A DNA stretch of 64,000 nucleotides from Clostridiales bacterium (GTDB taxonomy: Bacteria; Bacillota; Clostridia; Christensenellales; Borkfalkiaceae): positions 1-64,000 of the forward strand of contig SVHY01000003.1 of the NCBI GenBank assembly GCA_015055545.1, given 5' to 3'. Both the position numbers and the translations under genes were made by a program. Shown piece after piece: positions 14,322 through 35,875 of this stretch (positions within the stretch are counted from its first letter, which is position 1; each line of letters opens with the position of its first letter). The notes beneath the pieces are model-generated. The model was not told where the DNA came from. It was given only the letters and a program-made list of their open reading frames with translations, and did not search any database.

Positions 14322-14398
14322 TGAGGCGTAGCGCAGCTTGGTAGCGCGTTTGGTTAGGGACCAAAAGGTCGTGGGTTCAAGTCCCGTCGCCTCAACCA
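14322..14398 (+). tRNA. tRNA-Pro (anticodon AGG)
   Basis: TGAGGCG/CGCCTCA acceptor, TTTGG-TTAGGGA-CCAAA anticodon arm, GTGGG-TTCAAGT-CCCGT T arm, ACCA end; promoter TTGACT-N17-TATAAT at ~14259. Confidence 0.93.
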
Positions 14399-14401
14399 AA
14401 A
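14374..14401 (+). repeat. attL: 28-bp direct repeat at tRNA 3' end
   Basis: GGTTCAAGTCCCGTCGCCTCAACCAAAA identical to 35339-35366. Confidence 0.92.
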
Positions 14402-14495: not shown

Positions 14496-15728
14496 TCACC
14501 ATAAATTCAGCTTTTTACCTTCTGAAAGAAGGTATTCGTCGGATAAAGACGTGTACGTGCTATCGACGGCATCCAGCGCGTGTCCCATAAACGCTTTGCG
14601 TGCGTGTTCGGAAACGCCCAGTTCTTTGCAACGCGAATTAAACGTCTTTCGCAAGTCTTTCAGCATATGATTCGGTAAGATTGCCGATACCCGACGTCGT
14701 AAGAGCTGCGGGGTCGGCAAAGGTGGCAAACCGTCTACAAGATACGGTCGCAGCTTATCGCAAATATAAATACGCTTCGTTTTTTCTTCGCGAAGTTTGG
14801 ATTTTTTCTTGCGTTTCCCTTTTGCGTTTTTGGCCACAATGAACGCACCGTCGATTTTTGCCGTTTGAATTTCACAGGGGCGAAGTCCCGTGTAAAGAGC
14901 CAAGGCTAAGGCGATGGCGAACACGGGTTCGGCACTGCTGCCATTCAGTAATGTTTTTTCTTCGTCCTTCGTGAGTGCAACGCTGCTGACTTTTTCATAC
15001 GAAACCTTCAAAATAGTATCCAACGGATTCTTTTTGATGATATCATGTCGAATTGCGCAATTGAAAATACCGTTTAAAAGTGAGTGCAGTTCTTCGCATG
15101 TCTTGAATTTTTCTTCCTTTTCCAGCGAATCAAGCACCGTTTTGCAATCGAGCGGCAAAATCGATTTGAGCTCCCGTTCTTGAAAATGCGGTCGCAAGTG
15201 TTTTTCAAATCGATTTATATCCTTTTTAAACGTTTCGGGAACGACTTGCTCTTTTCGGTACGTTTCAAAATAGAAACGGGCAAAGGCGGTAAACGTTGTC
15301 GGTAGTTCGAAACTCTCCGTTTGCGGTTTTGCCTTTTTCAGCTTTTCCAACATACGCGCTTTAGCAATCTCTTTCGTTTTTCCGCTGGCGGATACGTTAT
15401 ATCCTTCCGAACGGAAACGGATCTCATAAGTTGTAGAATTTTTGCCGCTTTCGTGAATGCGAATGCGGCAACGTTTTTTGTTTATTAAAATAATTCTTTG
15501 TAATTGTTTAGGCATTTGTTTTATCTCCTGTTCAGTAAATTCAACAAAGTCCTGTTCTGCTCCCGACGTCCCCACGTCGGGTTTTTCTTTTCCCTGTTCT
15601 GAAATAAACATTCGAAACTGTGCGCGCCGCTCTTGTGCATGTTCGTTCGATACACGATGCCGTTGAATAACGTTGATGATAAACTGCGCGGCTTGTTCTA
15701 ATTCCTGCAAATCCCTTTCAGACAACAT
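14496..15728 (-). CDS. Tyrosine recombinase/integrase
   Basis: YTGLRPCEIQTAKI, KDLRKTFNSRC, FMGHALDAVDSTYTSL; located at attL. Confidence 0.93.
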   Translation of the reverse strand: MLSERDLQELEQAAQFIINVIQRHRVSNEHAQERRAQFRMFISEQGKEKPDVGTSGAEQDFVEFTEQEIKQMPKQLQRIILINKKRCRIRIHESGKNSTTYEIRFRSEGYNVSASGKTKEIAKARMLEKLKKAKPQTESFELPTTFTAFARFYFETYRKEQVVPETFKKDINRFEKHLRPHFQERELKSILPLDCKTVLDSLEKEEKFKTCEELHSLLNGIFNCAIRHDIIKKNPLDTILKVSYEKVSSVALTKDEEKTLLNGSSAEPVFAIALALALYTGLRPCEIQTAKIDGAFIVAKNAKGKRKKKSKLREEKTKRIYICDKLRPYLVDGLPPLPTPQLLRRRVSAILPNHMLKDLRKTFNSRCKELGVSEHARKAFMGHALDAVDSTYTSLSDEYLLSEGKKLNLW

Positions 15729-15924
15729 TTTGATAGCTCCTTTGTGTAAATTTGGGTGAAAAAACCCAAGAAAAGTCTACCAAAAAATAGTCAATTTGCA
15801 ACAAAAGGGATTTTATAAAATTTATAGTATATTAAATTTTATAACAAATCTTTTGTGAGTTTTTCTACATAGAACACCCCCTAAAACTACGAATTTTTAG
15901 TAGTAAAAATCCCGACGTCGGGAT

Positions 15925-16542
15925 TTAATTTTGCGTATTTTCCATTTCAAGCGATTGTAAAAATTCGGCGCGTTCTTCTTCAAGTTCAGCGTGCAAGATA
16001 TTATATAAATCAATCAGTTTGCTTGTGCCTTTAGGAAATTCTCCTAAGGTGTGTTCTTCGATAATTTCCATAGAAGGCTTATAAAATGGATCATGTTCGA
16101 TTTTCCCAGACGAATTTAGATAATATAAATTTCCTTTTGCAAAAAGACGAAATAGCTGTCCTTTTTCTTTATCGTAAACAGTTACCATTTCACAAGTAAA
16201 CCAGTCGGGATCTTCCATTTGTGCTTTTCTTCGCAAGTGACAAGCCGTATGATACATATCGATTAAATCCTGTGGCGTGTCTTCGGGTATACCGTCATGG
16301 AAAATTATTTTTTTTAATTTATCCCATTCATAAGGTTGTCTATAATTGTGTTCATTGATTACGTAACATTTATCATCTAATCGCAGACCTATCTCTGCAG
16401 GTAATAGATAGGCGCGATTTCTCCAAAGATTTTTATAATCATAGTCAGTATTCCATTTTTTGCGTTGCACTGTTACAAATTGAATAATGTGGTAGGGTTC
16501 GTGAATTAAATTAGCTTTCTTTCGTTCGGTTTTGTTTTCCAT
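15925..16542 (-). CDS. Hypothetical protein of the element
   Basis: 205 aa ORF with upstream RBS, followed by palindromic terminator-like hairpin. Confidence 0.6.
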   Translation of the reverse strand: MENKTERKKANLIHEPYHIIQFVTVQRKKWNTDYDYKNLWRNRAYLLPAEIGLRLDDKCYVINEHNYRQPYEWDKLKKIIFHDGIPEDTPQDLIDMYHTACHLRRKAQMEDPDWFTCEMVTVYDKEKGQLFRLFAKGNLYYLNSSGKIEHDPFYKPSMEIIEEHTLGEFPKGTSKLIDLYNILHAELEEERAEFLQSLEMENTQN

Positions 16543-16606
16543 CTTGTTTTCTCCTTTTCAGCTCCGACGTCGGAGTTGGCGTTCAAAAAATCCCGACGTC
16601 GGGATT

Positions 16607-16966
16607 TTACAGTTTCCAGTTTTTATGCTTTTCTTGATAATCCAACTGCGCATCAATATATCCGTTGACAGATAATTTGTTGCCGTAATCCAGCTTTCGA
16701 TATTTTTCCAACCAAAGCCGTTCCTGCTCCGTAAGGGCAGGGGCGGTGTTTTCGTTTTGGATAGTTATGTTCCCGAAGTCGTCTTCCCTGCCAACAAGAT
16801 AATCAATCGAGCATTCAAAGAAATTTGCAAGCTGAATTAAAAAGTTTGCAGTAGGTTCGTTTAATTTTTTTTCCCAGCGTCCGATATTTGTTTGGCTTGT
16901 TTTTATGGCATTAGCTACATCTTGTTGGGATAAATTTCGTTCTTCACGTAATTCTCTTAATCGCAT
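16607..16966 (-). CDS. XRE-family repressor
   Basis: LREERNLSQQDVANAIKTSQTNIGRWEKKLNEPTANFLIQLANFFECSIDYLVGR. Confidence 0.9.
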   Translation of the reverse strand: MRLRELREERNLSQQDVANAIKTSQTNIGRWEKKLNEPTANFLIQLANFFECSIDYLVGREDDFGNITIQNENTAPALTEQERLWLEKYRKLDYGNKLSVNGYIDAQLDYQEKHKNWKL

Positions 16967-18131: not shown

Positions 18132-18680
18132 ATGGTTGAATTAACGGCTGTCGATAGAGAAGACGGAAGCAAAGGGAAATGTTTAGTTAGCGATTCGGAA
18201 ATCGTGCTGATTCGAGAATATGAAACGTATTGCACAATCAATCTTTCCGACGGCGAAGAAATCTACGTTGCGACGAGCTTTAAGGAAATTAAAGAAAAAC
18301 TGGCTGAAATTTATCCCAGTGTTTCATCGTACTGGATTGAGATTGACAAGACGTTATACGATAGCAGCGTGAAAGGTTGCTTGGTAAAGTCTAACAGCGT
18401 AATTAGCGTGTTCGAGTATCCGAACGGTACGAGAATCGATATATCCCACAGGCAAAGTCAATTTTCCTACACGGTAGTTACGGAAGCGCCATACGGGACA
18501 ATATTGGAAAAGTTCAAGAAACGAATGTCCGAGCAAAAACAGATTTGCGAAAGTATCAAAAGAAGCTATCGGGAGCGGGAAAATTTTCGTAGGAAGAAGC
18601 GTGAAAAAAGGGGTTCAAGAACTCCGACGTCGGAGATTGACCGACGTACGTATATACGTAAGTATATCACGAAAAATTGA
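18132..18680 (+). CDS. Hypothetical protein
   Basis: 182 aa, RBS AAGGAG; contains a CCGACGTCGG palindrome near its end. Confidence 0.6.
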   Translation: MVELTAVDREDGSKGKCLVSDSEIVLIREYETYCTINLSDGEEIYVATSFKEIKEKLAEIYPSVSSYWIEIDKTLYDSSVKGCLVKSNSVISVFEYPNGTRIDISHRQSQFSYTVVTEAPYGTILEKFKKRMSEQKQICESIKRSYRERENFRRKKREKRGSRTPTSEIDRRTYIRKYITKN

Positions 18681-20263: not shown

Positions 20264-21457
20264 ATGAGTGAATTGATTGATTTCAACACCCAAAAGAACT
20301 GGGATTTTATGAAGTTTGACGGTTCAAGCGTGAGCGGTGTGCTTTCATCGGAAGGGCAGGCGAGATTGAAAAACCGTTGCCAGCGCGTATTGGAAAGCGC
20401 GCAAAAAACGGCTGAAAGCGTTTGCGTGCTGGGGTACGAGCTTCGAGCGTTGCGCGAATCGGGTGAATGGAAGTTCGTTGTCAATCCCGAAGACGGTATG
20501 CGCTTCTTGTATTCGAGCTTTGAAAAATTTTCAGAATATGCTTTCGGGTTCGGTAGAACGTACACGTCGAATTTGACGTTGCTTGCCGAGTTTTGCGAAA
20601 AAGACGAAAGCGGGCGCGTGCAAATCAAAGAACGGTATCGTGGTTTTAAGCAAAGCGGGCTTGTAGAGCTTGCGCCCTTATCGGAAATTGAGCGACGGCA
20701 GTTTACGTCGGATATGACGATAAAGGATATTCGGCTGTGCAAGAAGTACATGCAGACGAGCAATTATTCATATCAACGTGCACGCGACGGATTCAACCTT
20801 TTGGAAAGTGCTAAGGCTTGGCAGGATTTTGAAAAAATCGGTTCGATAACACCGCCTGCAAGCGTTCAAATCCCGACGTCGGGATTTTCAGAACCCGAAA
20901 ATATACAATCCGAGCCGTTTGAACACGAGTTTTCCGACGACGTTGCGGAAATGGATGCAGAGTTCCATCGCACGTTTGCGGAAGAAGAAACGCGGGAAAC
21001 GTTTGGACAAGCTGACGATTATGAACCCGAAACGTTCTGGCAAGGCGGTGGACTTGACAACGTGGACGAGCCTGCGCCTGCGGAAGTGTATGCACACGAA
21101 CCGCCGAGCGTATCCGACTCTTGCCTTATGCCAAATTCCAAATCGTACGAATTGACGGCGCGGGATAAGGTCCGCAAGTTTTTGAAAGATTACAAGAATT
21201 GGACCAAAATAGACAAAGAGAACCTTGCCCCTGGTGTGGTAAACGAATACGAATACATATTTGAGAGTGAAAATGTGGCGTTGATTGCAAGAGAAGTGCG
21301 CTGGTTCAAAGATATGGAATCGAAAGTGGAAAAGATAGTTGTTCGATTTTACTGGGATACGCTCTACGGTGACGGATATATTGAAGCTTCCAAGGCGAAG
21401 CTTGAAAAGTTCATCCCTGCGCATTTGGACGAATTGAAGTGGGGGGCAGAAAAATGA
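20264..21457 (+). CDS. Hypothetical protein, possible phage/plasmid DNA-metabolism accessory
   Basis: 397 aa, strong RBS AAGGGGGT; N-terminal helical region YSSFEKFSEYAFGFGRTYTSNLTLLAEF resembles phage/plasmid DUF3102-type proteins (unverified). Confidence 0.6.
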   Translation: MSELIDFNTQKNWDFMKFDGSSVSGVLSSEGQARLKNRCQRVLESAQKTAESVCVLGYELRALRESGEWKFVVNPEDGMRFLYSSFEKFSEYAFGFGRTYTSNLTLLAEFCEKDESGRVQIKERYRGFKQSGLVELAPLSEIERRQFTSDMTIKDIRLCKKYMQTSNYSYQRARDGFNLLESAKAWQDFEKIGSITPPASVQIPTSGFSEPENIQSEPFEHEFSDDVAEMDAEFHRTFAEEETRETFGQADDYEPETFWQGGGLDNVDEPAPAEVYAHEPPSVSDSCLMPNSKSYELTARDKVRKFLKDYKNWTKIDKENLAPGVVNEYEYIFESENVALIAREVRWFKDMESKVEKIVVRFYWDTLYGDGYIEASKAKLEKFIPAHLDELKWGAEK

Positions 21458-29285: not shown

Positions 29286-31604
29286 ATGGGTAGTAAACGG
29301 CGTGAAAGTGTATGGATATATCACGTCATCAGCGGGATATTGTTGATGGCGTCTATTTGTTACACTTTTTCGCTGGGTTGGAACGTTACGCTTCGAGCAT
29401 GGCAAGCAATAAAGGATGTTGGGAACTCTTGTGCCTATTATACGTCGTTCATGTTAGATGCTTATGGTTTTGACGTATTCGATGCATCGGCGACGGTGCA
29501 ATATATACCCGAAAGCATGGACGTATTCATGCCTGCGAGCTGGGCGGAAATTAAAGAGTATTGCGCGGGGTTTTGGTCGCGTTTTTCATCCAAAGCGTAT
29601 CTGAAAGGATATTTTGCGTGGTTAGGAACGGGAATTGCAAAGGGAAGTAAGGGATTTTTGCTTGTATTTATTCTTGCGATGCCGTTGATATTGTGCGTCA
29701 TTCTCTCATTCATTCTTTCGGATGAAAGCTATGGTAAACAGAGCATACCGCTTAGAATATGGTTGTTTTTTGAAAAATTTTTCTTTTTCCCGATAGTTCG
29801 CACGATAAAACGTTGGTGGCGTTTTATACACGACGAAGACAAAGACGGATATAAGATAGTCAATATCGATTCGGAGAAAAAGGATAAGGACGGGAACGTT
29901 GAAGCGCATCCAAGCGTTGTTGGCAAGCGATATCGAATTGTATTCATAGCAATATGGATGTTCAATCTAAATATTGCGACGATAGGGTTTGAGTTTATTG
30001 CATGGATGCTGTGGGTTGGTCCTGCGCTTGGATTTTACAACATATTTACACAGATTGCAAAGCTTGCGTTGGATTTATCGGTTGGAATCCGCACGTTGCC
30101 GAAGATTGTTTCGATAGTTCTTGGACTTTGGATATTCCACAAATACCGTCGCCATATTGGGTTTGAACGTTTATCGGACTTAGAAAAGGACGATATGCAG
30201 TTTTTAGAAGACAACCCTGGCAATTATACGGTCGTAGGGAAACCACGCGTTGGAAAAACAAAGCTGATCACGCTGTTGGCAAGATTGGAAAATAAACGTT
30301 TTCGTTTCCGTGCAAAGCGAAAAATGATGGAAGATATGAAACAATTCCCCGCACTGAACTGGCACGCTGTGCGGCAAACAGTGGATAATTTTCGTAAACT
30401 TCCGAAATTCGGTTTGGAATATATCCGTGGGTTTTGCGAAGAATTGCAATCCTGTTTTGAGAGTCGTAAAAGCATGAGCGACAAAGAACGCAAAGGGACG
30501 TTAAAAAATTTTCAAGCCCAGGGCTACGTTGGCGATGACTTTATATTCGGGTACGATTATGAGAAATTCGGGATGACGTATAATAATGGATTAATTCTCA
30601 TACCCATTTGGCGCGCTTTAACCTACTATATGGAAGAATATGCCATATACACGTCGGATTCGCTTGTTATAAGCAATTATCCTATACGTTCGACGATACG
30701 TTTTAAACAGCGTGGTCGATGCTTCCCTGTAATGAAATCGAATTGTTTTAAATTACGCCCGCAAGACGTGGAATCGGCGACAACGTGGAGCCATATTATA
30801 CCGCACGACGGTTTGCGATTGGGCGTAAAGTATAACCCAGACGGTAAATATAATAACAGCATAGACAGCGGTTTGCTTGTAATTTCAGAAGCTGGAAAGG
30901 AATTTGGGAATCAAATTACAAACCGTGGGAAGGACAAGGCTGGCGGCTGCAATCCTACAAACGATTTGTGGATGATGAACGCAAAAATGATATCGCATGC
31001 GATGACGGTTAATTATGAATGCTATACTCGTATCATGGTAGATGAGCAGCGCAGCGGTTCGATACAAACAGATTTCAATGAACTTGGAACCAAACTAACG
31101 CTAAAAAGGCGAACGAAAGATAAGATAATGATGCCTTTTTTTGCACTGGAAGAAGCCGCCTATATGCTAATTTGCAGTGCATACGATAAAATTTATGAGT
31201 TTTACTGGTCGCGACACGGGAAAGATTGTTTGACGATGCACGCGCTGTCCTGGTTGGATGGCATTATAAATAGTCACTATGTACGGACAATGAACGTGTT
31301 CGGTTCAAATGATGTCAAATTAAGGACTACGGACGAATCGAGTGGCGAAACGATGGAAAAGAGCAAGGACGAAACTCTACACGTAATGAAAGGAATGACG
31401 GACGGCGATGTGTACGATACGGGATTTTTCGGGATTGTTTACCGTGAAAAGTTCAAACGGTCGGAAGTCGGTGGACGTGAAAAAATCCCGTGCTTTACAA
31501 GCAAGTCACCAACAATACCACAAATGGTATTCCAACAAAGTCATATGTATAAAGAAGTGTTTAAATACTTTAAAGTTGATGAATTTAATGACGACGTGGC
31601 GTAA
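29286..31604 (+). CDS. Polytopic membrane P-loop ATPase (possible Zot/pI-like or T4CP-like motor)
   Basis: Several N-terminal TM segments, Walker A VVGKPRVGKTKLITLLA, Walker B-like GLLVISEAGKEFG, DEQRSGSIQTDFNELGTKLTLKRR. Confidence 0.6.
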   Translation: MGSKRRESVWIYHVISGILLMASICYTFSLGWNVTLRAWQAIKDVGNSCAYYTSFMLDAYGFDVFDASATVQYIPESMDVFMPASWAEIKEYCAGFWSRFSSKAYLKGYFAWLGTGIAKGSKGFLLVFILAMPLILCVILSFILSDESYGKQSIPLRIWLFFEKFFFFPIVRTIKRWWRFIHDEDKDGYKIVNIDSEKKDKDGNVEAHPSVVGKRYRIVFIAIWMFNLNIATIGFEFIAWMLWVGPALGFYNIFTQIAKLALDLSVGIRTLPKIVSIVLGLWIFHKYRRHIGFERLSDLEKDDMQFLEDNPGNYTVVGKPRVGKTKLITLLARLENKRFRFRAKRKMMEDMKQFPALNWHAVRQTVDNFRKLPKFGLEYIRGFCEELQSCFESRKSMSDKERKGTLKNFQAQGYVGDDFIFGYDYEKFGMTYNNGLILIPIWRALTYYMEEYAIYTSDSLVISNYPIRSTIRFKQRGRCFPVMKSNCFKLRPQDVESATTWSHIIPHDGLRLGVKYNPDGKYNNSIDSGLLVISEAGKEFGNQITNRGKDKAGGCNPTNDLWMMNAKMISHAMTVNYECYTRIMVDEQRSGSIQTDFNELGTKLTLKRRTKDKIMMPFFALEEAAYMLICSAYDKIYEFYWSRHGKDCLTMHALSWLDGIINSHYVRTMNVFGSNDVKLRTTDESSGETMEKSKDETLHVMKGMTDGDVYDTGFFGIVYREKFKRSEVGGREKIPCFTSKSPTIPQMVFQQSHMYKEVFKYFKVDEFNDDVA

Positions 31605-32118
31605 GCTTGGTACCGAAACGGCGACGTGACGGAAGTGGATGCACGGAAGCGCGGTAAATTTCGCTTGGCGAAATTTCCTGCAAACCAGAAAAGAAAAAAG
31701 ACGCTCCTGCCGTGTGGCAAGGCGCGTTGGACAGTGGGCACGGGGCGCGCGCGGCGCATATCCCATTATTAGCCCAAGTTTGTCTGAATAGACACGCTTG
31801 GTAGTTTTTGCGGAAAAAGGCGACGGGGGCGTGTCAATAGAACGGGAATTGGGATTTTGCGAATTTTTATTGCCGATTCCCTGTGCTGGCTTAGCCAAGC
31901 AGGGTCGGCTAAAAACGCAAACCCGTCTTTGTGTCGCCCCCGCCGCCCCGCAAAAACTTTGGCGGACAATGTAAAAATAATGCGCGCGAGAAACGCGCGT
32001 ACCGCATTAGCTGTCTGGACCGCGTAAGCGTGTCTGGACCGCGCCACGGAAAAACAAGGCAAAAAATCAAAAAATTCGGCGAAATCTCCGACCGTCGGAG
32101 ACGCCAAAGGGGGAACGT
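31605..32118. other. Structured intergenic region
   Basis: ~510 bp without a convincing ORF; AAATTTCGC-TTG-GCGAAATTT hairpin; long stem 31804-31831/31935-31957; repeated TGTCTGGACCGCG at 32012 and 32031. Confidence 0.5.
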
Positions 32119-32343
32119 ATGCTGCCGAAACAATCGAAATACAAAGAATTGTCGCCTGCGTTGCAGAATGTGATGGATTATTTGAACAAAGCTTTGGCGA
32201 AGGGCTCACGTTATATCAGTTATACTGACATAGGCAAAGCGTTGGAAAAGAAGCGGTCAAAGCACGCGGTAGCGTACGCAATAAATCGCCTGCGCCAGCT
32301 CGGCTACGTTCGAGTGCGTGACGGGAAACTTTCGTTGATATAA
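32119..32343 (+). CDS. Small winged-helix-like protein
   Basis: 74 aa; ISYTDIGKALEKKRSKHAVAYAINRLRQLGYVRVRDGKLSLI; RBS AAAGGGGG. Confidence 0.65.
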   Translation: MLPKQSKYKELSPALQNVMDYLNKALAKGSRYISYTDIGKALEKKRSKHAVAYAINRLRQLGYVRVRDGKLSLI

Positions 32344-32356
32344 GGGGGAAAAGACG

Positions 32357-32569
32357 ATGAGCTTTTATATAGAAACTATTAAGGTGATTCATTTAAAATG
32401 TGAACGTTGCGGAAAAAGTGATAGTTATACTGGCCTTAGAACGGCAAAGGACGCGCGCTCGTACGGTTGGGGCATATCCAAGGATTATAAAAAGTGTTAT
32501 TGTCCTGATTGTGCGCCGAAATATCGGAATGTTGGCATGGCGTACGGCGGGGTTTGTAGTTGGCGTTGA
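32357..32569 (+). CDS. Small zinc-finger-like protein
   Basis: CERC...CYCPDC; RBS AAGGGGG. Confidence 0.6.
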   Translation: MSFYIETIKVIHLKCERCGKSDSYTGLRTAKDARSYGWGISKDYKKCYCPDCAPKYRNVGMAYGGVCSWR

Positions 32570-32616
32570 CGTCGAAAAGGTGGAAATCGAATTTCCACCA
32601 TATCACCGGGAGAAAG
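32543..32616 (+). repeat. Left arm of 74-bp inverted repeat
   Basis: Reverse complement of 34150-34223 with 2 mismatches; contains GGTGGAAAT-CGA-ATTTCCACC hairpin. Confidence 0.9.
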
Positions 32617-32685
32617 GTGGACGGCCAATTTCCACCATATCCCCGGGAGAAACTATTCAATAAAATTGTAGCAGGAGCAAAGGAA

Positions 32686-33798
32686 ATGAACGTTGCGCAG
32701 GGAAACGTCAACAATGAAAAATACTTCAATTGTACGAATGGAATGTTGAAATTGGACATTCCAAGCCTTGCTGCGTTCGTGCTGGGAACGATAGACGGCT
32801 ACGCCCGTACGTCGCAAAAGAAACGCTACCGTGCAACATTGTCGGCGATAGCGAGTGATTACGGGTGCAGTCCACGGCAAATTAGCCGTACCGTCAAAAT
32901 GTTGGACGAAAAGGGTTATATCACGCGTGAATACGATGCGCGCTACGATAAGTGTGTTGCGTACGCTTCGAACTATGGCGGACCGCGTACAAATACATAT
33001 AAAATTCCGCTTTTCCTTTTGAACCGTGAATTTGATATCATAAATAAAGACAAGAAAACAGGCGAAGTGCACACGATTCGCCGTCGTTTAACACGCATCG
33101 AAGCGACGTTTGTTGTTTTGCTTGCATCGATTTGTGGCGAAAACGGCAAATTTAAGGCGACAATGCGTAAGTTTGCGAAGATGGTGCAGGATATATCCCC
33201 GATGACGGCTCAGAAGGCGATTTCAAATTTGTTGCACGCGGATATTATCGCACGTCCAAAGACAGCTACGCACCGTGCGGAAGAAAGCGAATACACGTTC
33301 AAGGACAAGGATTTGTTGAAAGAGATTCGCAAGGTAACGGAAGAAGCAAAGGCACGTCGTGCCGAAAAAGCGAAGATGAAAGAAGAAAAAGGCAAAACCG
33401 CATCCATCATATCGGCGCAGGAACAGGCAGTCAAGGACGCCGATGCGAAGAGTGCACGGGAAAGATTTTACGCCCTGCGTCGGGAACAGGCTGAAATAGA
33501 TGCAGCACGGATACAAGATAAATTGAATAAAATCCCGAAGTTTGCCGCGGCAATGCGTCAAATAAATCAATCGGAAATTCATATGGCAAGACTGGAAATC
33601 GCTGGTGACGTCAACGGTATGCGTGCATTACGCATCCAATGTGCGGGTTGGCGGCATGAAATCGAAGACGTGTTGCAGGATTTTGGCTATACGCAGGACG
33701 ATTTGAAACCAAAGCGGATTTGTTTAAAGTGCTCGGATACAGGATATTTGCCTGACGGAAAGGCTTGTGATTGCTATCCAAAGGGGGGCACGACGTGA
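32686..33798 (+). CDS. Replication initiator/primosome-like protein
   Basis: HTH region (SAIASDYGCSPRQISRTVKMLDEKGYITREYD) and C-terminal CLKCSDTGYLPDGKACDCYP zinc motif; start moved to ATG 32686 after RBS. Confidence 0.65.
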   Translation: MNVAQGNVNNEKYFNCTNGMLKLDIPSLAAFVLGTIDGYARTSQKKRYRATLSAIASDYGCSPRQISRTVKMLDEKGYITREYDARYDKCVAYASNYGGPRTNTYKIPLFLLNREFDIINKDKKTGEVHTIRRRLTRIEATFVVLLASICGENGKFKATMRKFAKMVQDISPMTAQKAISNLLHADIIARPKTATHRAEESEYTFKDKDLLKEIRKVTEEAKARRAEKAKMKEEKGKTASIISAQEQAVKDADAKSARERFYALRREQAEIDAARIQDKLNKIPKFAAAMRQINQSEIHMARLEIAGDVNGMRALRIQCAGWRHEIEDVLQDFGYTQDDLKPKRICLKCSDTGYLPDGKACDCYPKGGTT

Positions 33799-33889
33799 GA
33801 AACACGGCAAAAAATGGGAACGTAGGAATTGGATAAACGACATGAAAAAGCGCGGCAGGGTTCGCGCTTATAGACGTGCAAGAAAGTTG

Positions 33890-33925
33890 AACGCTCGGAC
33901 AAACGGTCTGAGCGTTTTTTGTTAT
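33890..33925 (+). terminator. Rho-independent terminator
   Basis: AACGCTCGGAC-AAAC-GGTCTGAGCGTTTTTTG. Confidence 0.65.
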
Positions 33926-34149
33926 TTTTCAAATAATATAAAAAAAGTCATATCACAAAGACATTTGCAGGGGGTATATATAGACAAAAAGTATACGGTT
34001 TTTCGGCTGGGGGTTTTCTATATATATAAACCTATATAATTTTGTATATAAAATAATACGCGCGCACACGTAAGCAAACGTAAGCGCGCGGGGGCACGCA
34101 AGCGTGCCTGACTTATTTCAGAACGTCGCCAAGAGATAAGCCCCGCCGA

Positions 34150-34223
34150 CTTTCTCCCGGGGATATGGTGGAAATTCGATTTCCACCTTTTCGACGTCAA
34201 CACCAACTACAAACCCCGCCGTA
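34150..34223 (-). repeat. Right arm of 74-bp inverted repeat
   Basis: See 32543-32616. Confidence 0.9.
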
Positions 34224-34376
34224 GCGGGGTGTGCGGCGCGTTGCGCCGAAAAGGCTGTGTTTGATACGTAGCGTGGGCATGAGCTTCGCGCTGGGGGCGT
34301 CGGCAACGTCGCATCCAAGCGGCGAAGGCTGGAAAAAAGCGATTGCCCGTGCCCGTATTTTTTTTGCTAAAAAAAT

Positions 34377-34449
34377 GTTGACTTTTAGTCAACAAATTTT
34401 AAAAAATCGCGTAAAAAGTGTTGACTTTTTGTCAACAATAGTGTATAAT
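34377..34449 (+). promoter_or_regulatory. hicAB promoter and operators
   Basis: Palindromes GTTGACTTTTAGTCAAC (34377-34393) and GTTGACTTTTTGTCAAC (34420-34436); TTGACT-N17-TATAAT. Confidence 0.8.
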
Positions 34450-34479
34450 AATATTAGAAAAAACGAAGGAGAAAGCGCA

Positions 34480-34668
34480 ATGCCGATTACACCAAAGGAA
34501 ATAATCAAGATTTTAAAGAAGAACGGTTTTACGGAAATTAGCCAAAAAGGCTCTCACGTAAAGCTACGAAATGATAAAACGGGAAAAACGGTCATAGTTC
34601 CTATGCACGCGAAAGATATCCCGACTGGAACAGAACAAGCAATATGGAAACAGGCGGGGCTGAAATAA
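34480..34668 (+). CDS. hicA: HicA family toxin
   Basis: MPITPKEIIKILKKNGFTEISQKGSHVKLRNDKTGKTVIVPMHAKDIPTGTEQAIWKQAGLK; start moved from ORF-track 34231 to ATG 34480 with RBS GGAG. Confidence 0.92.
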   Translation: MPITPKEIIKILKKNGFTEISQKGSHVKLRNDKTGKTVIVPMHAKDIPTGTEQAIWKQAGLK

Positions 34669-34707: not shown

Positions 34708-35175
34708 ATGAAAAAAATTTATCCTGCAATTTTCCATAAGGAAAATGGTTGTTACTGGGTGGAGTTTCCCGATTTGGAAGGCTGCATCACGCAAGGCGCG
34801 ACGTTGGAAGAAGCGTTCGCTATGGCAAAAGAAGCTTTGGCGTTATATCTTGACGGTATGAAAGAATTACCAAAAGCAACCGAAATGAACGCTATTAGTG
34901 TGCAAAATGGCGATACGGTTATGTTGGTAGAAGCTGATAATGCCGATGATATAGTTTATATTAAAACATCGGAAGTGCCGAAGTATATCGAAAACGGGTT
35001 GGAAGAAAAAGGATTGACGAAAGGTCAAGTGGCTTTTATCTTGGACGTAGACCGTTCCTATTTAACGCATATCGTAAAAGGTGAACGTGTGCCGTCTGTT
35101 GATATGGCAAAGCGTATAGGCATTTTGCTTGGGTTTGATTGGCGAATTTTCTACACCAACAACGAAGGTATTTGA
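34708..35175 (+). CDS. hicB: HicB family antitoxin with HTH
   Basis: YPAIFHKENGCYWVEFPDLEGCITQGATLEEAFAMAKEAL then C-terminal XRE HTH. Confidence 0.92.
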   Translation: MKKIYPAIFHKENGCYWVEFPDLEGCITQGATLEEAFAMAKEALALYLDGMKELPKATEMNAISVQNGDTVMLVEADNADDIVYIKTSEVPKYIENGLEEKGLTKGQVAFILDVDRSYLTHIVKGERVPSVDMAKRIGILLGFDWRIFYTNNEGI

Positions 35176-35338: not shown

Positions 35339-35366
35339 GGTTCAAGTCCCGTCGCCTCAACCAAAA
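35339..35366 (+). repeat. attR: 28-bp direct repeat
   Basis: Identical to 14374-14401. Confidence 0.92.
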
Positions 35367-35408
35367 CACAGGACAGCCGTTGGCTGTCCTGTATTTTGCT
35401 TTCGGCGA
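35356..35408 (+). repeat. 53-bp att-adjacent repeat, copy 1
   Basis: CTCAACCAAAACACAGGACAGCCGTTGGCTGTCCTGTATTTTGCTTTCGGCGA, identical to 36854-36906. Confidence 0.88.
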
Positions 35409-35875
35409 CGGCTCGCGTAAACCACGGATTATCGTGGGTTCACGCGAGGAGCGAGAAAAGAAAAAATTGAGATGAGTACGAACGTTGACGAGCGACGACG
35501 CTCTGCCGAGAGTTCTCGCTTGCGAGAAACGGCAGATACCCGTCGCCGTAAAATATTTCCGTATTGTGTATACGCCGCTAAAGGCGCAAGTCCCGTCGCC
35601 CGTTGGCTGTCCTGTGTTTTGCTTTCGGCGACGGGCGGAAGCTAAACGCTTTGCCGTGGGACGAACTGCCCGTTAAGCAAGGCGTTGATAACGCCTTGTA
35701 GGGGTGAGAAGAGTGAGCGCATAAGCAACGCGCGAACGGTGACCGAGCGCAAGGAATACCGTACCTTGCGCGAGAACACGCGAGAAATGAGAAACGACAG
35801 ATACCCGTCGCATCACTATTATAAATTTAACCATATATACAAAAACACGATTGCAATGAAATGCAACCGTGTTTT

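Follow-up and report, generated by a model that had tools for sequence, protein, structure and literature searches.

The stretch of DNA analyzed here (64,000 nucleotides, hereafter the window) belongs to the chromosome of a gut Clostridia bacterium and holds a complete element of 21 kb that is integrated in a tRNA-Pro gene (14322-14398, plus strand). A 28-bp repeat, a perfect direct copy of the tRNA-Pro 3' end, forms the left (14374-14401) and right (35339-35366) att sites, both on the plus strand, and a tyrosine integrase gene adjoins the left end (14496-15728, minus strand). This pair of repeats, together with the integrase, identifies a tRNA-integrated element. The integrase gene is followed by genes for a cI-like repressor, secreted and membrane proteins, a membrane ATPase, a winged-helix protein, a zinc-ribbon protein, a replication protein (rep) and a HicAB-like pair.

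The marker of the element family is the membrane P-loop ATPase (29286-31604, plus strand), a 772-residue protein of an unnamed family that has no family match in Pfam, PHROGs or NCBIfam. Relatives of it were found in 45 of 200 related genomes and at 49 loci in assemblies from Clostridia and Bacilli. A fold search gave weak matches to inovirus Zot and to packaging ATPases and assigned no element class; by sequence, neither Pfam nor PHROGs relates the protein to Zot. Between this gene and rep lie a small winged-helix protein of 74 residues (32119-32343) and a zinc-ribbon open reading frame (ORF) of 70 residues (32357-32569), both on the plus strand. The gene for the winged-helix protein directly precedes rep in several relatives, where 7-18 nt separate the two. 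Here the two genes are separated by the zinc-ribbon ORF and by the dyad units discussed below. The HicA-like toxin (34480-34668) and the HicB-like antitoxin with a helix-turn-helix (34708-35175), both on the plus strand, lie between rep and the right att site.

Several further repeats were noted in and around the element. The palindrome AAAAATCCCGACGTCGGGATTT occurs in two exact and two looser copies (15905-15926, 16586-16607, 20866-20887 and 18617-18638) around the cI-like repressor gene and beyond; it resembles a repressor operator, and a similar palindrome is present in one relative (L039). A direct repeat of two TGTCTGGACCGCG copies (32012-32043) lies 5' of the winged-helix gene, and CTGGACCGCGTAAGCGTGTCTGGA is kept at the same place in a relative (L035) whose ATPase is only ~33% identical. 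Two TGTTGAC...GTCAACA dyads, 43 bp apart, overlap the predicted promoter of the HicAB-like pair (34370-34438) and are likely the operator of this pair. Right after the right att site, a hairpin-forming repeat, GGCTGTCCTGTATTTTGC...GGCGACGG, is observed (35349-35411) and recurs 223 bp further on (35600-35634).

The Rep protein and the region that follows its gene

The rep gene (32686-33798, plus strand) encodes 370 residues and has an ATG start with a good Shine-Dalgarno sequence. Its product shows weak PHROGs matches to phage replication initiators, and residues 260-365 match the N-terminal third of the DnaC/DnaI-type ATP-binding protein NF005304 (E 1.7e-10, a match far below the cut-off of the model). 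The N-terminal part of helicase loaders is the part that contacts the helicase. In the C-terminal domain of Rep, a C-x2-C-x-DTG...C-x-C motif is invariant in 11 family members. The AlphaFold model (mean pLDDT 78.9, pTM 0.52) places two winged helices ahead of a long helical part. The matches that Foldseek listed for this model include the plasmid F protein RepE54 and further complexes of Rep with DNA, at probabilities of 0.97-0.99 and E values of ~0.006-0.02, with no match at E ≤ 0.001. No Rep_3 Pfam match was found for this Rep (E up to 1) or for 11 family members (E up to 0.01), and none to RepA_N for this Rep or the family members searched. An HUH endonuclease domain is likewise absent from the Pfam and PHROGs matches, the model consisting of winged helices and helical parts. 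Rep is thus predicted to combine tandem winged helices, weakly RepE-like, with a helicase-loader N-terminal domain placed at its C-terminus, and the name "Rep-like" given to it in the initial annotation is a fair one.

A host protein (L052:1909-3633, G000:C7) carries DnaD-type domains and terminates, like Rep, in the helicase-loader N-terminal domain, and the domain in Rep may have been acquired from the host. Relatives of the Rep C-terminal domain (24-26% identity) are also encoded in three unannotated faecal phage records of 6-11 kb (L138, L139 and L140). Early searches of viral contigs with the single Rep and ATPase proteins gave no match.

The element family occurs across Clostridia. In every relative in which both genes could be placed, namely ten assembly loci oriented by the ATPase gene and three loci from a genome search, rep is located 3' of the ATPase gene and codirectional with it. 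A further feature that is shared lies just beyond rep. All 14 elements compared, counting this one, have the motif AA[T/C][T/C]G[A/G]A[T/A] within 16-42 nt of the rep end and a stem-loop after it; here, the motif GAATTGGATA occupies 33826-33835 and the stem-loop 33848-33869, both on the plus strand. The stem was seen in all 14 when the sequences were folded one by one, and its sequence varies among the elements; RNAalifold on a MAFFT alignment of the stem-loop returned hardly any consensus, with three pairs and no compensatory changes, the stems being apparently misaligned. The stem-loop is usually followed by a terminator and then by an AT-rich stretch. Here these correspond to an intrinsic terminator-like hairpin of rep (33889-33917, plus strand) and to an AT-rich segment (about 33930-34058), which is a candidate unwinding region. 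We consider the motif and stem-loop the best candidate for an origin or a packaging element, an RNA element being the other possibility.

The inverted repeat and the dyads around rep

The rep gene, the candidate motif and stem-loop, and the AT-rich segment are bracketed by the two arms of an inverted repeat. The left arm (32543-32616, plus strand) takes in the final codons of the zinc-ribbon ORF, and the right arm (34150-34223, minus strand) is situated 3' of rep. The near-perfect 74-bp repeat described in the initial annotation was recomputed, and 72 of 74 positions (97%) are complementary, with sharp edges and a spacing of 1533 nt. The two mismatches are a C/T difference (TTGGCGTTG versus TTGGTGTTG) and an A/C difference (ATATCACC versus ATATCCCC). 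Exact inverted matches within the element reach 40 nt, as against a maximum of 12-20 nt in 20 shuffles. The inverted repeat is therefore real and non-random. The hairpin GGTGGAAAT-CGA-ATTTCCACC and the CGGGAGAAAG end that had been reported for each arm are indeed present in both, as are the Rep-like gene and the AT-rich segment between them.

The partial direct copy that had been noticed after the left arm proved to be the second of two tandem 37-bp units (unit 1, 32576-32612; unit 2, 32613-32649; plus strand), which are 86% identical. Each unit contains a dyad, GGTGGA-N9-TCCACC. Two copies thus lie directly 5' of rep, at 32579-32599 and 32616-32636 (together 32579-32636), and one lies 3' of rep, at 34167-34187 (coordinates on the plus strand). 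The half-sites are kept in all three units despite the changed centre of unit 2. Elsewhere in the window, no copy with fewer than two mismatches occurs, and exact matches to the dyad with ATATC were found in this genome only among the 121 genomes searched.

The arms are equally confined. No third copy is present in the 1.95-Mb draft genome, which answers the call of the initial annotation for a search for further copies, and the arm sequence was not found in 300 related genomes. Plasmids and phages yielded nothing except a 21-bp plasmid match at chance level, and searches of viral contigs with the palindrome and unit patterns gave no matches or single ones, in numbers near chance. Among 400 relatives, the palindrome GGTGGAAAT-N0-8-ATTTCCACC had three other single matches; these were set aside as unrelated, two lying in apparent genes and one being terminator-like. 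The assembly loci of relatives contain no inverted pair longer than 28 nt at a spacing of 300-5000 nt, and the loci from the genome search likewise lack an arm-sized pair. Against three dyads in the window, no repeated dyad was found around rep in the same region of 13 relatives. The repeat is hence missing from related elements with an intact Rep, the comparison that had been proposed at the outset, and it looks like a lineage-specific one-off of a single element. As Rep relatives at 23-27% identity have no repeated dyad around rep, the dyad is not required in the family.

Origin of the right arm and rival explanations

A short direct repeat points to how the second arm arose. The 8-bp sequence CCCCGCCG borders the right arm on its inner side (34141-34148) and recurs at its outer end (34214-34221), both on the plus strand; counting flanks, 10 of 11 nt match. 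The copies are 73 bp apart, a spacing that is the size of the insertion. At the left arm, no comparable border repeat longer than 5 nt was found. Because CCCCGCCG bounds the right arm and not the left, the right arm is best interpreted as left-arm sequence that was copied and inserted in inverted form, which makes the left arm the probable donor and the right arm the probable templated copy. When the right-arm copy is removed, the flanks join as CCCCGCCGTAGCGGGG, a perfect hairpin (CCCCGC-CGTA-GCGGGG). This empty recipient site is a reconstruction; no relative with an empty site is close enough to align. An 8-bp direct repeat with such spacing and tolerance occurs at 0.2% of the element positions, and in GC-rich DNA the border repeat could be due to chance.

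The simplest reading of the sequence is a templated inverted insertion with the left locus as donor. We infer that the left side would represent the original arrangement, in which the end of the zinc-ribbon ORF is followed by a 37-bp dyad unit in the rep leader. During replication, the nascent strand at the GC-rich hairpin site 3' of rep would have switched template to the left locus through the short common sequence CCCCGCCG / CGGCGGGG, copied about 65 more bases and returned to its original template, so that an inverted copy came to lie across the replicon. The dyad would then stand twice 5' of rep and once beyond rep, the stem-loop and the AT-rich block. We tentatively favour, with a confidence a little under even, the view that both arms are a young inverted duplication in an integrated virus-like replicon and that the dyads are likeliest Rep sites.

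The main rival accepts the same templated inverted duplication and takes the dyads and the second copy to be a scar that has no role in replication and merely persists in non-coding DNA. It fits nearly all the data and is quite possible, though short of probable: the arms are absent from all relatives, the copy sits between non-coding parts, and the border direct repeat is compatible with a mutational origin. What it leaves to coincidence, as may be the case, is that all three dyads retain their half-sites despite the altered centre of unit 2, and that the copies flank the replicon block. Control by RNA, in which right-arm transcripts would act as a trans-encoded counter-transcript and silence rep by pairing with its leader, appears improbable. 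The computed duplex between a 34041-34240 RNA and the rep leader amounts to -163 kcal/mol, and a 32543-34260 transcript would pair 72 of 74 left-arm bases with the right arm; however, such pairing is expected of any inverted repeat, the terminator-like hairpin at 33889-33917 stands between the arms, and a promoter scan detected no plus-strand promoter in the AT-rich segment 5' of the right arm.

Besides Rep binding sites, the initial annotation had offered an invertible segment, a nested mobile unit and a double origin as readings. The 13 other family members, which keep rep in the same place and orientation with the motif and stem-loop behind it and lack the repeat, speak against all three, the last of them taken as a double origin that is conserved. 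Recombination between the arms, flipping rep and the downstream parts to turn replication on or off, would suit arms that are long, nearly identical and inverted, and the zinc-ribbon ORF would survive a flip almost intact because the arm carries the ORF end. Yet rep shares the direction of the ATPase gene in all family members examined, the relatives among them lack the arms, and the sole recombinase found, in place of one in or near the segment, is the integrase beside the left att site, 17 kb off; we judge such a switch quite improbable. One gene flanked by inverted arms could also suggest a mobile unit with rep as its cargo and the arms as its terminal inverted repeats, a proposal that we consider extremely improbable. 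Relatives have rep and the stem-loop in the same position without arms, from which it follows that rep did not arrive with the arms; moreover, the segment between the arms encodes no transposase, the arm pair is not flanked by a target duplication, and the genome has no second copy. Lastly, inverted chimaeras are a known artefact of assembly and amplification, and the source is a draft metagenome assembly of 59 contigs. Given the two mismatches between the arms and a contig that is continuous through both, we regard an artefact as very improbable.

Returning to the preferred reading, Rep-binding sites on both sides of rep are our leading functional guess, by analogy with plasmid F and in view of a dyad confined to the surroundings of rep and a Rep predicted to be a tandem winged-helix initiator. 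The readings of the initial annotation, which had named Rep binding sites, are to this extent partly supported. The dyads 5' of rep would serve as an autoregulatory operator for the tandem winged-helix Rep, and the duplicated dyad 3' of rep would be an extra Rep site that bridges to the upstream one. A fuller proposal holds that the uncharacterised initiator of the family unites tandem winged helices with the N-terminal, helicase-binding part of a helicase loader without its ATPase, that the origin is the conserved motif and stem-loop directly 3' of rep, and that here the inverted copy of the operator dyad beyond this origin lets Rep bridge the two sides and thereby limit replication; taken as a whole, it is unlikely.

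The repeat alone is a one-off of a single element. If formed as suggested, it would be a natural experiment in which a replicon gains a regulatory site through template switching. It also draws attention to integrated elements of gut Clostridia that form a widespread, unnamed family with an uncharacterised replication protein and an equally uncharacterised candidate origin. This broader replicon, with its ATPase family, its loader-domain initiator and its motif and stem-loop, merits more attention than the repeat.

Comparison with known replicons and elements

To our knowledge, a helicase-loader-type C-terminal domain has not been described for RepE. In other respects, the replicon of plasmid F (oriS, repE operator, repE and incC) offers a likeness: it shares a tandem winged-helix initiator, predicted here, inverted-repeat sites directly 5' of rep and a further site 3' of rep. 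The inverted repeats that lie between the promoter and repE in plasmid F are bound by dimers of RepE, and RepE on the incC iterons 3' of the gene is considered to form a loop with the origin (PMC13028717). In contrast to plasmid F, no iteron array was found 3' of rep in this element, 33799-34480 containing short two-copy repeats only, and what stands downstream is one copy of the upstream site, in inverted orientation. Furthermore, the relatives of this element lack the sites, and the element is integrated and virus-like. The evidence for membership among RepE-type replicons is therefore mixed, given that neither a Rep_3 match nor iterons are present.

Theta plasmids of the RepA_N type from Bacillota, of which pSK41 is an example, have in common with the element an N-terminal winged helix, represented here by an HTH_36 match, and a C-terminal domain with ties to host replication proteins. 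Unlike these plasmids, this Rep has no RepA_N Pfam match, and its C-terminus matches the N-terminal part of NF005304.

The proposed origin of the right arm resembles short-range template-switch mutations, in which an inverted copy of nearby sequence enters a hairpin-prone site and the junction shows short homology; in the present case, donor and recipient are 1.5 kb apart, and the ancestor is a reconstructed one. As a whole, the element is reminiscent of integrated inovirus-like elements, with which it has in common the tRNA site, the integrase, the cI-like repressor, the secreted and membrane proteins and a membrane ATPase gene. It differs from them in that its ATPase, while without a Pfam, PHROGs or NCBIfam match, resembles Zot just by a weak fold match.
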